A DNA stretch of 46,706 nt, taken from Myxococcales bacterium (GTDB lineage Bacteria > Myxococcota_A > Polyangia > Polyangiales > Polyangiaceae). Below, piece after piece: positions 14,915 to 22,450 of the stretch. Position numbers and translations under genes: made by a program. The notes under the pieces are model-generated. The model was given only the letters and a program-made list of their open reading frames with translations, was not told where the DNA came from and ran no database searches. The stretch is taken from positions 1 through 46,706 of the forward strand of contig JAEUKG010000018.1 of assembly GCA_016794325.1 (NCBI GenBank), in the 5' to 3' direction. The stretch's first letter is position 1; every line of letters starts with the position of its first letter.

Positions 14915-16282
14915 TCACTCACGCGGGGCGAGCTTGTAGCGTTCGAGCTTGCGGTAGAGCGTCGACCGATCGATCCCGAGGATGCGCGTGGCCTCGGTCT
15001 TGTTCCAGCTCACCGCGTCCATGACCCGCTCGATGTACCGGCGCTCGACCTCCTCGAGCGTGACGAGCTCGCGCGGGTCGCCGCTGGTGACGAGCACGTC
15101 GGTGGACTGGTAGCTCCGGATGCGCGGCGGGAGATCGTCGACGGCGACCTGCTCGAAGCGCGCGAGCGCGACCGCGCGCTCCATCGCGTTCTGGAGCTCG
15201 CGCACGTTGCCCGGCCAGGAGTAGTCGAGGAGCTTCGCCGCGGCCTCGGACGAGAGGCCGGCGACCGTCTTCTTGTGGCGCTCCGCGAAGCGGGCGACGA
15301 ACGTCTGCGCGAGATCGAGGACGTCGCGGCCGCGCGCGCGCAGAGGCGGGAGCTCGAGGTGGACGACGTCGATGCGGTGGAAGAGGTCTTCGCGAAAGCG
15401 CTTCTCGGCGACGAGCGACGCGAGGTCTTGGTTCGTCGAGGCGACGAGGCGGGCGTCGAAGGGGACCTCGGCGTCGCTCCCCACCGGGCGCACGGTGCGC
15501 CCCTCGAGCGCGCGGAGGAGCTTGGCCTGCATCCCGAGGGGCAGCTCGCCGATCTCGTCGAGGAGGAGCGTGCCCCCCGACGCCTCGGCGAAGAGGCCCT
15601 TGCGCGCGCTGCGGGCGTCGGTGAACGCCCCCTTCACGTGGCCGAAGAGCTCGCTCTCGAGGAGCGCCTCCGGGAGGGCCGCGCAGTTCACCGCGACGAG
15701 CGGGCCCGCCGAGCGGCGGCTTCGCTCGTGGATCGCGCGCGCCACGAGCTCCTTGCCTGAGCCGCTCTCCCCGGTGACGAGGACGGTCGCGTCGGTCGGC
15801 GAGACGCGATCGATCAGATCGAACACCTGGAGCATCGCGGGCGACGACCCCACGAAGCTCCCGAAGCCGTCGGCGGCGGCCCGGCGCGTGCGCAGCGCTC
15901 GAACCTCGTCCTCGAGGCGCCGATGGCGGATCGCTCGCTCCAGCGTGAGCGCGAGCTGCTCGGCGTTGAACGGCTTGGTGATGAAGTCGAACGCCCCCGC
16001 GCGGAGCGTCGCGACCGCCGTCTCCATGCTGCCGAAGCCTGTGACGACGACGACCGGGATCGCGGGCCGGTTGGAGACGACCCGATCGCACAGCTCGACG
16101 CCGCTCATCCCCCGCAGGTTCAGGTCGGTGACCACCGCGTCGAAGTCGCCGTCGAGGACGAGGGCGTAGGCCTCGTCGGCCGACTCCCGGGTCGTCACGT
16201 CGAAGCCGCGCTTCCCCAGGGCGCGCGCGAGCTCGCGACACATGTCGGCGTCGTCGTCGACCACCAGGATGCGACCTGTCAT
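14915..16282 (-). CDS. NtrC-family sigma54-dependent response regulator
   Basis: 455 residues. Receiver domain (1-115) with acidic pair Asp10/Asp11, phospho-acceptor Asp53 (VVTDLNLRG), Thr81 and Lys103. AAA+ domain with Walker A GESGSGKE (171-178), Walker B GTLLLDEI (237-244), and RIDVVHLELPPLRARG; the sigma54-contact loop reads GAFTDA (218-223) instead of GAFTGA. A Fis-type helix-turn-helix ends the protein (WNKTEATRILGIDRSTLYRKL). It activates transcription by remodelling sigma54 polymerase. ATG 16282 overlaps the kinase stop in ATGA, so the pair is one operon. Targets are unknown. Confidence 0.95.
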   Translation of the reverse strand: MTGRILVVDDDADMCRELARALGKRGFDVTTRESADEAYALVLDGDFDAVVTDLNLRGMSGVELCDRVVSNRPAIPVVVVTGFGSMETAVATLRAGAFDFITKPFNAEQLALTLERAIRHRRLEDEVRALRTRRAAADGFGSFVGSSPAMLQVFDLIDRVSPTDATVLVTGESGSGKELVARAIHERSRRSAGPLVAVNCAALPEALLESELFGHVKGAFTDARSARKGLFAEASGGTLLLDEIGELPLGMQAKLLRALEGRTVRPVGSDAEVPFDARLVASTNQDLASLVAEKRFREDLFHRIDVVHLELPPLRARGRDVLDLAQTFVARFAERHKKTVAGLSSEAAAKLLDYSWPGNVRELQNAMERAVALARFEQVAVDDLPPRIRSYQSTDVLVTSGDPRELVTLEEVERRYIERVMDAVSWNKTEATRILGIDRSTLYRKLERYKLAPRE

Positions 16283-17670
16283 GACAACCTCGGTAGGTAT
16301 AGTGAGAAGGTGCTGCCGCGGCCGGCTTCGCTCGCCGCGTCGATCGCGCCGCCGTGGTCGCGCGCGATGTCCGCGGCCACCGTGAGCCCGAGCCCGGTCC
16401 CGGCGCCCGGGGGCTTCGTCGTGTAGAACGGCTCGAAGATGCGGGCGAGCGCGTCCTCGGTGAGGCCGACGCCTCGGTCGACGACCCGGATCATGGCGAC
16501 CGGTCCGACCTGCGGCAGCGGCCGGCCCTCGGGCGCGCGCTCGGCCACGTCGACGACGATCTCGAGGTCACCGCCTTCGGGCATCGCTTGGACTCCGTTG
16601 ACCACGAGGTTGGTCACCGCCTGCTCCAGGTACTCCGCGTCGCCGAGCACGAGCGCGTCGTGACGGACGGTCACCCGCAGGTGGACCCCGTGCTTCTCTG
16701 CCAGCGAGCGGAGGAGCTGCATCGAACGCTCGGCGACGGCGGAGAGGCGCACCTCGCCGCGCGCTCCCGCGCTCCGCCGCGAGAAGTCGAGGAGCTGGGT
16801 CACGAGGCGCCGCATCTTCTCCACTTGCGCGAGGATGACGCCCCCGGCCTCGCGCGCCTCGTCCGGTGAGGAGTCTTCGGTGGCGAGCGCTTGGCCGCGG
16901 ATGAGGAGCACGGCGAGCGGCGTGCCCAGCTCGTGCGCGAGGCTGGACGCGAGCGTGCCGACCGTCCGGAGCCGGTCGAGGTGGCGGAGCTGCTCCAGCG
17001 TCTCGACGCGCGCGGTGGACTCGGCCTCGGCGCGCCGCTGCGCCTCGGCGATGCGGTCGCACATCACGTCGAGCTCGCGCTCGAGCGCCCCGATCTCGTC
17101 GCCCGTCGTCGGCGCCAGCCGCTGCGAGAGGTCCCCCGCGCCGACGCGCCGGGCCAGGCCGACGACGCGCTGGAGGGGCCGACCGATCAGCGCCCCGCCG
17201 AGGACGATCGCCAGCCCGGCGGCCGCGACCGCGAGCGCCGCCGCGACCGCGAGCTCCGCGCGGAGTTGCTCCCGGAGCACCGCGCCCTCGTCCATCACGC
17301 CGCGGCTCACCTCCAGGGTGCCGCCGCCACCGCCGACCCGGACGGGCAGCGTCGCCCGGACCACGCGCCCCTCCGGAGTGGTCGCGGTCTCGACGTGGTC
17401 GGCGGGGGCGATCTCGCGCGACCAGCGGAGGGTGACGTCCCCGCGCCGCCGTTGGAGCACCTGGAGCAGGTCGAGCGCCCGCTCCTCGCCGTCGCGCGCC
17501 CACGTGGCGACGAGGACCTCACGCAGATCTTCGCCCAGCTCGCGCGTGTCCGTCTCCACGCTGCGCGAGACCGCTCGGGCCTCGGCGCGCGCGGCGACGT
17601 AGCCGTACACCCCGAGGAGGGCGACGCTCACCACGAAGAAGAGGGCCGCGAACTTCGCGACGACTTTCAA
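16279..17670 (-). CDS. Membrane sensor histidine kinase (HAMP, HisKA, HATPase_c)
   Basis: 463 residues. Two membrane helices (about 7-25 and 139-162) bracket a periplasmic sensor of roughly 110 residues with no recognised fold. A HAMP segment follows (RPLQRVVGLARRVGAGDLSQRL), then the H-box SLAHELGTPLA with His246, N-box EQAVTNLVVNGVQAM, G1 DRGVGLTEDALARIFEPFYTT split across the lid, and G2 GTGLGLTVAADIARDHGG. It should autophosphorylate and pass phosphate to Asp53 of the overlapping response regulator. It belongs to the NtrB/ZraS-like class that partners sigma54 activators. The signal sensed is unknown. Confidence 0.95.
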   Translation of the reverse strand: MKVVAKFAALFFVVSVALLGVYGYVAARAEARAVSRSVETDTRELGEDLREVLVATWARDGEERALDLLQVLQRRRGDVTLRWSREIAPADHVETATTPEGRVVRATLPVRVGGGGGTLEVSRGVMDEGAVLREQLRAELAVAAALAVAAAGLAIVLGGALIGRPLQRVVGLARRVGAGDLSQRLAPTTGDEIGALERELDVMCDRIAEAQRRAEAESTARVETLEQLRHLDRLRTVGTLASSLAHELGTPLAVLLIRGQALATEDSSPDEAREAGGVILAQVEKMRRLVTQLLDFSRRSAGARGEVRLSAVAERSMQLLRSLAEKHGVHLRVTVRHDALVLGDAEYLEQAVTNLVVNGVQAMPEGGDLEIVVDVAERAPEGRPLPQVGPVAMIRVVDRGVGLTEDALARIFEPFYTTKPPGAGTGLGLTVAADIARDHGGAIDAASEAGRGSTFSLYLPRLS

Positions 17671-17742: not shown

Positions 17743-18906
17743 TCAGGGGGCTACGGACGCCCACGCGGCGTCGCCGGAGCTCATCTGTCCAAGCCAGGTG
17801 AAGAGCCCGACGCCGCCGGCGGTGTATTTCGCCGGATCGCCGAGCATGGTGTGGCTCGCGCCCGGAACCACGAAGTGCCGGTAGTTCGGGAGCGGCGTGA
17901 GGACGTCGGCGTTGAGCTTCTCGAGCGCGGCCTGGAAGTCGGCAGGCTGGAGCTGGAAATAGGTGCGGATGGTCTGATCTTGCTGGGACGAGAGCAGCGC
18001 CATCCGGTCCTTGGGGTACTTCTGGGCGACCGCCTTCGGGAAGAGCGACAGGTCGTCCTTGCACGCGGCGCCGCAGATGGGGCCGGCCACGGCGTCGAGC
18101 TTCCAGCTGTCGAACCACGCGCCGCGGAGGCCGGGGTTGATCGAGTTGCCGATGAAGAGCGGGAGCGAGTCGTCGACCAGCATCATGTTCGTGTCGGGCC
18201 ACGCCGCGCGGAACGTCGGGTAGTTGAAGAGCGCCCCGCCGCCCCCGGCGCTCGAGCCCGTCACCATCACCTGCGACGGCTTCTTGAACGTGGCCACGAG
18301 GCGCTTCAGGTACGCGGTGACGTTGGCGTGCCCTTTGTGGTGGATTTGTTTGCTCTTTCCGCCGTTCGCGTAGGTGTTCACCGTGTCGCCCGTGTGCACG
18401 TCGCCGGTGCAATAGGGGATGAAGACGGTGTTGTAGTCCTTGAACGGGTTCTCCGCGGACTTGTGATCCATCACCGAGCCGGCGAACCCGCTCCGCGACG
18501 CGGCGGTGAACTGCGCCTGCCCGAACGGGCCGTGGGTCGACGTGTTCAGCTCGACGCAGGTGAAGTAGTCCCAACACGCGCCGCCGCCGTTGAAGAACAC
18601 GAGCAGCTTGTCGCTAGACGGGTTCGGATAGACTCCGATGCCGGTCTTGGTCCCGTCGTCGCACGCCGAGTCGGGGAAATCGACGAAGGTCCAGGTGTTG
18701 GCCGGAGCGTCGATGGGGGCGCCATCGCCCGAGCCGGAGTCCCCGCTCGATCCGCCGTCGCCGCCGGCGCCGTCGGCGGTCGCGCCCGCGTCGTTGCCGC
18801 CGCCGCCGGGGTTCGTGACGGTGGCGGGGTCGCTGCTGCACCCCTGCGCGGCGACGAGGCAGGCGAGCGAGCCGAGGGCGAGGACGAGCGGGAGAGCGCG
18901 ACGCAT
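17743..18906 (-). CDS. Pectinacetylesterase/Notum-family lipoprotein
   Basis: 387 residues. The signal ends at Cys23 (LVAAQG-C), followed by a Gly/Ser/Asp-rich linker (30-66). The alpha/beta-hydrolase part has FFNGGGACWDYFTC (104-117), the family-typical YCTGDVHTGD (165-174), and nucleophile Ser219 in GSSAGG; His in PGASHTMLG near the C-terminus completes a plausible triad. Known relatives remove acetyl or acyl groups from polysaccharides or proteins, so a surface esterase is likely; the substrate is not known. It lies upstream of the kinase operon on the same strand with a 72-base gap. Confidence 0.85.
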   Translation of the reverse strand: MRRALPLVLALGSLACLVAAQGCSSDPATVTNPGGGGNDAGATADGAGGDGGSSGDSGSGDGAPIDAPANTWTFVDFPDSACDDGTKTGIGVYPNPSSDKLLVFFNGGGACWDYFTCVELNTSTHGPFGQAQFTAASRSGFAGSVMDHKSAENPFKDYNTVFIPYCTGDVHTGDTVNTYANGGKSKQIHHKGHANVTAYLKRLVATFKKPSQVMVTGSSAGGGGALFNYPTFRAAWPDTNMMLVDDSLPLFIGNSINPGLRGAWFDSWKLDAVAGPICGAACKDDLSLFPKAVAQKYPKDRMALLSSQQDQTIRTYFQLQPADFQAALEKLNADVLTPLPNYRHFVVPGASHTMLGDPAKYTAGGVGLFTWLGQMSSGDAAWASVAP

Positions 18907-19629: not shown

Positions 19630-20655
19630 TCAGCCGGCCGCGAGGGCGCGCCAGAGGGCTTCGGCGGACATCTTCGGGGAGCCGGCGCGCTCGGCTTCGA
19701 CCCGGTGCACCAGCTCCACCACCCGCGCGTTGACGGGTGCGGCCAGCCCGTGGCGCTGCGCCAGCGCCACGATCTCGCCGTTGAGGTAGTCGACCTCGGT
19801 GAGGCGGCGCTTGTCGAGGTCCTCCCACATCGACGATCGGGCCTCGGGATCGACCGCGAGCTGGGCCCTCGCCGCCACGCGGAAGAGCGGCGAAGGGAGC
19901 GCGAGGACCCAGGGGAAGACGCGCGGCGGCAGCGGGCCGAGCCTCGCCATGGGCATGCCCGCGGCCCGGATCACGCCGATCGCCTCCTTCATGAGCGCGC
20001 GGACGACGCGCCGGTATCCTGTTAGGTATAGTATGTCGCGGGTCGGGGCCCCCGAGAGCGCGCTCACGCAGTTCGCGACGTTCATCACGAGCTTCGACCA
20101 CTGGAGCGGCCGCACGTCGGCGGGGGTCTCCACCGTCGTCCCCGCGTCGATGAGGGCGCGTACGAGCGCTCGGGCGCGCGAGTCGGCGCTCGCCTCGATC
20201 ACCAGGTGCCCGGTCGTCGCGCGCCGGAATCGGCCTCCGCCCTGGGAGATCACGTTGAAGCCCACGATGCCGCCGAGGACGACGTGGCTCGGCAGCCCCG
20301 CCCGGAGGACGTCGGCGTTGCCGACCCCGTTCTGCAGGCTCACCACCACCCGCGGCGTCGCGAGCGTCTTCGCGAGCGTCTCGGCGACCTCACGGGTCTG
20401 CGCGCTCTTCACGCAGCAGAGGACGACGTCGCGGTCGGCGAGGGCTTCGGGCTCGACCCCGTAGCGCACGGCCTCGGGAGCCACCGCGTGGCGGCTCCCG
20501 TCCATGTCGGCGATGGTGAGGCCCGCGGTCGCGATCTCCCGAGCCAGACGCTCCCGTCCCACCATCACCACGTCGTGTCCGCTCGCGGTGAGGCGGCCCC
20601 CCAGCCAGGTGCCGATCGAGCCAGCCCCGATCACGCCGATGCGGACCTCACCCAT
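19630..20655 (-). CDS. panE: 2-dehydropantoate 2-reductase (ketopantoate reductase)
   Basis: 341 residues. N-terminal Rossmann motif IGVIGAGSIGTWLGGRLTASGH (NADPH), KSAQT around 88-92, LQNGVGN (family signature), catalytic Lys in PLQWSKLVMNVANCVSAL, and the C-terminal signature SMWEDLDKRRLTEVDYLNGEIV split across positions about 275-297. It reduces ketopantoate to pantoate in pantothenate/CoA synthesis. Many genomes hold several PanE-like proteins acting on other 2-keto acids, and no panB/panC lies nearby, so the biosynthetic assignment is probable but not certain. Preceded on the same strand by the MCP gene (45-base gap). Confidence 0.88.
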   Translation of the reverse strand: MGEVRIGVIGAGSIGTWLGGRLTASGHDVVMVGRERLAREIATAGLTIADMDGSRHAVAPEAVRYGVEPEALADRDVVLCCVKSAQTREVAETLAKTLATPRVVVSLQNGVGNADVLRAGLPSHVVLGGIVGFNVISQGGGRFRRATTGHLVIEASADSRARALVRALIDAGTTVETPADVRPLQWSKLVMNVANCVSALSGAPTRDILYLTGYRRVVRALMKEAIGVIRAAGMPMARLGPLPPRVFPWVLALPSPLFRVAARAQLAVDPEARSSMWEDLDKRRLTEVDYLNGEIVALAQRHGLAAPVNARVVELVHRVEAERAGSPKMSAEALWRALAAG

Positions 20656-20700
20656 CCGCGGCAGAGGTAAGCCGACCTCGGCCGCTCCGTCAACCCGGCC

Positions 20701-21918
20701 TCACGCCGCGCGGCGATGGCTCGAGGCCGTCGATCGCGCCCGCTGCGCGCTCTTCGGCGCTTCGTCCCCGCGGAGCGAGAGCAAGAACTCGTCGACCTCG
20801 GCGCGCAGCATCGAGGCCTGCTCGGCGAGTCCGCCAGCCGCGCCCAGGACCTCGCCCGCGGCGTCGCCGGTGTGGCGGGCGGTGTCGACGATGGCCTCGA
20901 CGCCGCTCGTCACGAGCCGCGTGTTCTGCGCCGCGTGCTCGACCGTGGTCGCGATCTCGCGCGTCGCCGCCTCTTGCTCCTGCACCGCCGCCGAGATCGC
21001 GCCCGCCGCGCCGTCGACGCCCTCGAGGGTGACGGCGATGCTCCCGATCGCGTCGACGACCCGGGTCGTCGCGGTGCGGATCGCGCCCACCTGCTGCTCG
21101 ATCTCCAGCGTCGCGTTCGCGGTCTGCCCCGCGAGCCGCTTCACCTCGGAGGCGACCACCGCGAAGCCGCGGCCGGCCTCGCCGGCCCGCGCGGCCTCGA
21201 TCGTCGCGTTGAGGGCGAGCAGGTTCGTCTGCGAGGCGACCTCGTTGATCACCTTGACCACGCGCCCGATCTGCTGGGCCGCGTCTCGGAGCCCGCTCGC
21301 CGCGAGGTCGGCCTGCTTGCCGTTGTCGACGGCCCGCTTCGCCACCGCGCTCGCGTGGCTCGCCTGCCCGGCGATCTCGCGGATGGAGGCGCTCAACTCT
21401 TCGGCCGCGGAGGCGACCGTCTGCACGCTCTCGCTCGTGCTCTCGGAGGCGCGCGCGCTCTCGACCGAGCGCTCCTGCGTCGCCGTCGCCGCCCCCGACA
21501 GCGAGCTCGCCGAGGCTTGGAGCTCGACGGCCGCGGCGGCGACGGTCTCGGCGACCGCCTTGACCCGCTCCTCGAAGCTGTCGGCCCGGCGGGCGTTCTC
21601 GCGCTTCATCTCCGCGAGCTCGTTCGAGCGCTGGTGCATGCGGTCGATGGCGTCGTTGATGATCCCGGCGCCGCGCTTGAAGGACCCGCGCATGCCGTGC
21701 GGGAGCACCCGGCGGTAGTATTGCTCTCGCGACACGTGCTCGAGCGAGGCGCACGACTCGCGGACGTAGGCGTCGGTGAGGTCGAGGAGCCGGTTGATCG
21801 CGTGCCACAGCGGCGCGAGCTCTTCGTCGTCGTGGATGCGCATGATGCGGGGCTCGAGGTCCCCGGTCGCGGCGCGCTGGCAGACCTCGATCGCTTCGTT
21901 CACCTTCGGATCACGCAT
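20701..21918 (-). CDS. Cytosolic methyl-accepting chemotaxis protein (signalling half)
   Basis: 405 residues, no transmembrane helix. After an N-terminal helical region (1-100, possibly HAMP-like: [10 protein letters not shown]) comes a long coiled-coil with the conserved hairpin tip [20 protein letters not shown] and [18 protein letters not shown], which binds CheA/CheW. There is no ligand domain of its own. ATG 21918 lies inside the end of the preceding PAS gene (8-base overlap) behind a strong GGAGAGA site, so both proteins should be made together. Inference: the PAS protein is the sensor and this is the output module of one receptor complex. Confidence 0.92.
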
Positions 21919-22450
21919 GGCTCTCTCCTTCGAGCTGGAACATGAGCTCGTCGTACGTCGTCCCGAGCTTGCCGAGCGCCTCCGTGAGGGTCGAAGTGCC
22001 CGCGCGGATCTGGTCCGCCTTGGTCGTCTCGCGGCGCTCGGCGGCGAGGATCGCCGCGTAGAGCCCCTTCACCGTCTCCACCGCGGAGCGGCGCGGCACC
22101 CGCCGGTTGGAGTGGTACCCCGTGATGTGGCCCGCGGCGTCGAACGTCGGCGTCACGTGGGCGAAGACCCAGTAGTGATCGCCGTTCTTCGCGAGGTTCA
22201 CGACGTAGGCGAAGATCTCCTCGCCGCTCTTGATGCGATCCCAGAGGAACTTGAACACGCTCCGCGGCATCTCCGGGTGCCGGATCATGCTGTGGGGCGC
22301 GCCGAGGACCTCGTCTTCGGTGTACCCCGCGACGCGAAGGAACACGTCGTTCGCGTAGGTGATCTTTCCTTCGCGGTCGGTCTTGCTGACGATGATGTCG
22401 TCTTCCTCGAACGTCCGCTCGTGGCCCGTGGGTGTGCTCGATCGCGTCAT
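21911..22450 (-). CDS. PAS-domain protein resembling the aerotaxis receptor Aer sensor half
   Basis: 179 residues. Residues about 17-125 are a PAS domain closely following the Aer-type pattern: [74 protein letters not shown]. In Aer this domain holds FAD and reads redox state. The remaining 50 residues form a helix that ends by overlapping the MCP gene by 8 bases. No membrane segment is present. The arrangement looks like an aerotaxis receptor divided into two proteins. FAD binding is an inference from the RHPxMP and NGxxYWV signatures. Confidence 0.88.

Follow-up and report, generated by a model that had tools for sequence, protein, structure and literature searches.

Does a PAS protein without an output domain, encoded beside a chemotaxis signalling protein without a sensor, make up one receptor divided over two genes, and is such a receptor new? 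Two overlapping genes in a contig of a Myxococcales bacterium raise this question (JAEUKG010000018.1, positions 1 to 46,706; this whole stretch of 46,706 nucleotides is called the window here). The original prediction, made from the DNA letters alone, read the pair as an Aer-type aerotaxis receptor split in two and suggested that a soluble, two-protein oxygen or redox receptor would be a distinct architecture. The relevant features are the following.

21911..22450, minus strand: cetB-like gene for a stand-alone PAS protein of 179 residues (open reading frame and Pfam; AF2 model, mean pLDDT 95.4)
20701..21918, minus strand: cetA-like gene for a soluble methyl-accepting chemotaxis protein (MCP) of 405 residues (open reading frame and Pfam; no transmembrane segment)
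21911..21918, minus strand: 8-base overlap of cetB and cetA (PAS stop codon at 21911-21913, MCP ATG at 21916-21918)
21925..21930, minus strand: ribosome-binding site AAGGAG of cetA, within cetB, 6 nt before the cetA ATG (from the sequence)
22100..22417, minus strand: Aer-type PAS domain, residues 12-117 (profile matches to Aer PAS 8DIK and NifL 2GJ3, Foldseek, mapping of CetB2 residues)
22265..22282, minus strand: RHPEMP motif, residues 57-62 (from the sequence; R57, P59, M61 and P62 invariant in 39 homologues)
22166..22189, minus strand: KNGDHYWV motif, with NGDHYWV at residues 89-95 (G90, Y93, W94 and V95 invariant in 39 homologues)
21917..22090, minus strand: C-terminal three-helix part of the PAS protein, residues 121-178 (AF2 helices 121-139, 144-162 and 166-178)
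21643..21906, minus strand: CetA-type HAMP domain, residues 5-92 (alignment; conserved in 95 pairs)
20773..21684, minus strand: signalling domain, a long antiparallel helical hairpin, residues 79-382 (AF2 helices 79-244 and 250-382; MCPsignal)
21133..21231, minus strand: receptor tip of 33 residues, the region of an MCP that contacts CheA and CheW (invariant core in the alignment)
20962..20994, minus strand: candidate methylation site of 11 residues, 309-319 (consensus match; cheR and cheB present in the genome)

The two genes are adjacent and co-oriented, as in the CetA/CetB family, and both the 8-base overlap and the strong ribosome site predicted for the second gene were found exactly. Two plus-strand frames of about 400 codons (20716-21945 and 20504-21718) run antisense to the MCP gene; the G+C content makes it most likely that both are spurious shadow ORFs. 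Elsewhere on the minus strand, the window holds a typical two-component pair with a 4-base overlap (14915-17670; an NtrC-family sigma-54 response regulator and a HAMP histidine kinase) and a Pectinacetylesterase-family protein (PF03283) with a lipoprotein-like N-terminus (17743-18906).

The PAS protein proved to be of the predicted Aer type and devoid of an output domain, as both signature motifs are present and PAS families alone score above the Pfam cut-off. Its best profile match is the E. coli Aer PAS domain 8DIK (E 2e-37), a match that ends at about residue 135, and the further solved relatives are full-length Aer, MmoS and NifL. Aer, MmoS and NifL are all flavin redox sensors. The AF2 model also gave 8DIK as the top Foldseek match (rmsd 1.0 Å over 126 columns); among natural redox sensors NifL came next after Aer by both profile and fold, and LOV domains were weaker profile matches. 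In CetB2 of M. gryphiswaldense, FAD is held via H54, N55, R58, F67, W71, N86, V100 and R117, and replacing Phe67, Trp71 or Asn86 renders the protein non-functional (PMC12442639). The corresponding pocket in the window (H53, S54, R57, F66, W70, N85, V99 and R116) keeps the spacing of CetB2 and is identical to it, position by position, at seven of eight residues, with F66, W70 and N85 in the places of the three essential ones. The odd position is Ser54, where CetB2 has Asn55; serine is the commoner residue across the family. H53, R57, W70, N85 and R116 were invariant in all 95 CetBs compared. The three helices that follow the PAS domain are a candidate docking region.

For the second gene, the original prediction of a soluble MCP stood, but its description as a signalling module only did not, because a CetA-type HAMP domain at residues 5-92 had been missed. 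Pfam, which scores the signalling part well (MCPsignal, E 4.7e-29), leaves this domain unscored, and it was recognised from conservation: an alignment with 23 relatives gave nine invariant positions (G19, R24, D46, R53, E54, R69, G75, G78 and N88), and the window CetA shares all nine columns with a CetA from Campylobacterales (L118). Elliott, in 2009, reportedly defined the CetA/CetB family from the conservation of this HAMP domain and listed 55 adjacent pairs along with nine residues that are conserved. By profile comparison, fused Aer-type receptors, among them E. coli Aer, showed no CetA-type HAMP. In the AF2 model, a short HAMP-like domain leads into a single long antiparallel hairpin. No transmembrane segment was detected: the best 19-residue Kyte-Doolittle mean (1.39) lies inside the signalling hairpin. 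Nor is there a hydrophobic stretch upstream of the ATG, even in the longest in-frame extension, which rules out a mis-called start that conceals a membrane hairpin. Judged from hydropathy, an anchor is absent, and peripheral binding to the membrane is possible. A basic tail of 17 residues forms the C-terminus and was not present in the relatives compared.

Thus, by its sequence, the pair is very probably a bipartite energy-taxis (redox) receptor of the CetBA type that has no membrane anchor. The claim of a distinct architecture is not supported, since a split receptor with overlapping gene order is the published CetA/CetB family (PMC2628428, PMC12442639); the Aer-type split is well supported, and it is the soluble, anchor-free CetA that is a variant differing from the members described. 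Bipartite receptors of this kind, CetA/CetB (and CetC), are known from Campylobacter jejuni (PMC2628428, PMC3558505), and a 2026 review lists CetA/CetB receptors as a class (PMC13401364). As in the window, neighbouring co-transcribed genes of C. jejuni encode a protein with only an Aer-type PAS domain and a HAMP-MCP. However, CetA of C. jejuni carries a membrane hairpin of two helices and its CetB associates with the membrane, whereas the window CetA starts at the HAMP domain. M. gryphiswaldense has four overlapping cetBA pairs, of which CetB2 carries FAD and contacts CetA2 (PMC12442639); the mechanism described there is the one that we propose here, but CetA2 is linked to the inner membrane. 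The window CetA lacks the inner-membrane N-terminal hairpin that both studied systems share, a hairpin that is not known as a defining feature of the family. The studies consulted here present CetA only as membrane-linked.

E. coli Aer has the closest PAS domain by sequence and structure and shares the RHPxMP and NGDHYWV motifs. In contrast to the window pair, which is encoded by two genes and has no membrane segment, Aer carries PAS, HAMP and MCP in a single membrane protein, without a CetA-type HAMP profile match and without the three helices C-terminal of the PAS domain. AerC of Azospirillum, CetZ of C. jejuni and FrzCD of Myxococcus are likewise cytoplasmic MCPs, and AerC and CetZ have PAS input. 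They differ from the window pair in that sensor and signaller are in one chain or, for FrzCD, that there is no PAS partner.

To examine the pairing itself, we scanned one genome for each species, with 80 named loci retained, as well as the Myxococcota genomes and plasmids. Together they yielded 99 loci that carry a close CetB. An MCP with a CetA-type HAMP directly follows CetB on the same strand at 95 of these loci; three of the other four have no adjacent partner and the fourth is a fused gene of the Aer type, with no CetA HAMP in its MCP, although fused forms are under-sampled among the 80 named loci, which were picked by similarity to full-length CetB. A reciprocal test covered 379 Myxococcota genomes, with the PAS query taken up to E 1e-30 and the HAMP profile below 1e-12. 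The PAS query matched 15 genomes and the HAMP profile 14, all within the PAS set; the two matches were adjacent in every one of the 14 and never fused, and the fifteenth PAS match is an ordinary fused receptor. Weaker HAMP matches came mostly from very long frames, each with several of them. Beside the pair, no third gene proved to be conserved, and the flanking genes of the window do not recur at related loci. Because both searches converge on the same 14 genomes, with adjacency in all and unconserved flanks, the pairing is not due to chance. Separation of the genes in relatives, which the original prediction had counted against a joint receptor, was thus looked for and not seen among these Myxococcota. 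CetB-like PAS genes without an adjoining CetA (L055, L105 and L121, the last with an MCP about 0.8 kb downstream) are possible analogues of CetC or CetB5.

Could the two genes be co-expressed and yet form no joint receptor, the PAS protein serving another target and the MCP taking its input from HAMP alone or from another partner? The partnerless CetB genes lend this some support, and CetA is said to act without CetB in C. jejuni cell invasion (Elliott 2009). However, the strict co-occurrence and adjacency in 14 of 14 Myxococcota genomes, while the flanks change, and the interaction of homologues in M. gryphiswaldense (PMC12442639) leave this reading very improbable. A split receptor whose PAS domain responds to heme, light or a small molecule, or has no cofactor at all, would agree with the many ligands of PAS domains and with the LOV matches; since the nearest relatives by sequence and fold are the FAD-binding Aer, NifL and MmoS, and the residues essential in CetB2 are kept, we regard it as very improbable. 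That an ordinary fused Aer-like receptor was newly split by a frameshift or an assembly error might be suspected in a draft genome, and another record does hold a frame-broken aer-like gene. But the split is kept across about nine phyla, the stop codon, ribosome site and start codon are all in place, and the MCP bears its own CetA-type HAMP, missing from fused receptors; the conserved split and the distinct HAMP rule this explanation out, and we give it practically no weight. The frame-broken gene lies in an IMG/VR contig (L037, 4941-5330 and the following frame), where an apparent frameshift puts a PAS part in one frame and a PAS tail plus MCP in another.

A tether of CetA to the membrane or to a scaffold, via a partner or the basic C-terminal tail, would modify rather than replace the reading of the pair as a CetBA-type receptor. 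The tail itself speaks for it, as does the precedent of FrzCD, a soluble myxobacterial MCP that uses DNA as a scaffold (PMC12077210). Considering that the relatives compared lack the tail and that no conserved third gene adjoins the pair, such a tether appears unlikely.

In the CetBA-type receptor that we propose, CetB would bind FAD non-covalently and report the redox state of the cell. It would dock, as a subunit of its own, on the CetA-type HAMP of the MCP dimer, presumably by direct contact and at 1:1 stoichiometry, and the HAMP domain would relay the change along the helical hairpin to CheA/CheW and, through a probable coupling to CheA, to flagellar switching. Methylation by CheR and CheB would adapt the receptor, and the 8-base overlap may couple the translation of CetB and CetA. 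Which CheA takes part, in which direction the cells respond and where the complex sits in the cell are likewise inferred; the CetA half, without an anchor, should work in the cytoplasm. The mechanism of contact between CetA and CetB is unsolved even in C. jejuni, where a chimeric CetA-CetB fusion failed (PMC3558505).

The genome, a fragmented draft of 1300 contigs, provides the components for such a pathway, as it encodes FliG, flagellin, CheA, CheW, CheB, CheR, CheX and a globin-MCP outside the window pair. With FliG and flagellin genes present, the source organism can probably swim. A che cluster (G000:C1020, L029 1-9607) encodes a CheA-like kinase with two CheW stretches, CheW, CheY-like proteins, CheB, CheR and CheX, and it also carries a globin-PAS-MCP of 862 residues, which might sense oxygen directly and so supply a second input to the same pathway. 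The window CetA aligns without gaps over 260 residues with this globin-PAS MCP and with a PAS-PAS MCP of the genome, and therefore belongs to the same hairpin length class. From the equal hairpin length, a shared array of CetA with those MCPs is plausible.

How widespread is the missing anchor? The N-terminal hydrophobic segment of CetA is absent in all 14 Myxococcota pairs, and anchor-free CetAs make up 41 of the 95 pairs (the window pair and 40 others that otherwise show the features of the family), with three borderline cases (L060, L064 and L125) scored as membrane forms. Outside Myxococcota, such pairs occur in Acidobacteriota, Gemmatimonadota, Planctomycetota, Verrucomicrobiota, Actinomycetota and some Alphaproteobacteria. 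Most alpha- and betaproteobacterial and campylobacterial pairs have a two-helix hydrophobic hairpin directly N-terminal of the CetA HAMP, and in hairpin-bearing pairs the genes usually overlap by 23-26 bases. Seven Actinomycetota loci (L053, L083, L088, L089, L092, L111 and L122) have CetB beside a short anchor-free CetA of about 300 residues, in a group that is unusual for flagellar chemotaxis receptors. On the tree, the anchor label changes at least 10 times, yet the starred branches force only two changes, and an AU test did not reject a single clade of anchor-free forms (p 0.346). Anchored and anchor-free sets share the invariant HAMP residues and the FAD pocket, an argument that docking and sensing do not differ between them.

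The anchor-free form is worth recording, as it bears on an acknowledged question: the reason for the membrane placement of CetA is unknown, CetB being cytoplasmic (Reuter and van Vliet, PMC3558505). Nature provides CetAs of both kinds, hairpin-bearing and hairpin-free, that have their HAMP domain and PAS partner in common, and comparing them offers a test of why the membrane is used. Furthermore, purification and structure determination of the complex should be easier with a soluble pair than with the membrane forms, and the structure would reveal how the PAS subunit drives the HAMP domain. We put forward tentatively, as a view with somewhat less than even chances, that a two-protein redox receptor free of the membrane exists in several phyla and either joins cytoplasmic chemoreceptor arrays or forms them, and that its CetB senses a soluble redox pool and not a respiratory component bound to the membrane. 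If this is true, the membrane anchor of CetA would be dispensable for FAD-based energy sensing.
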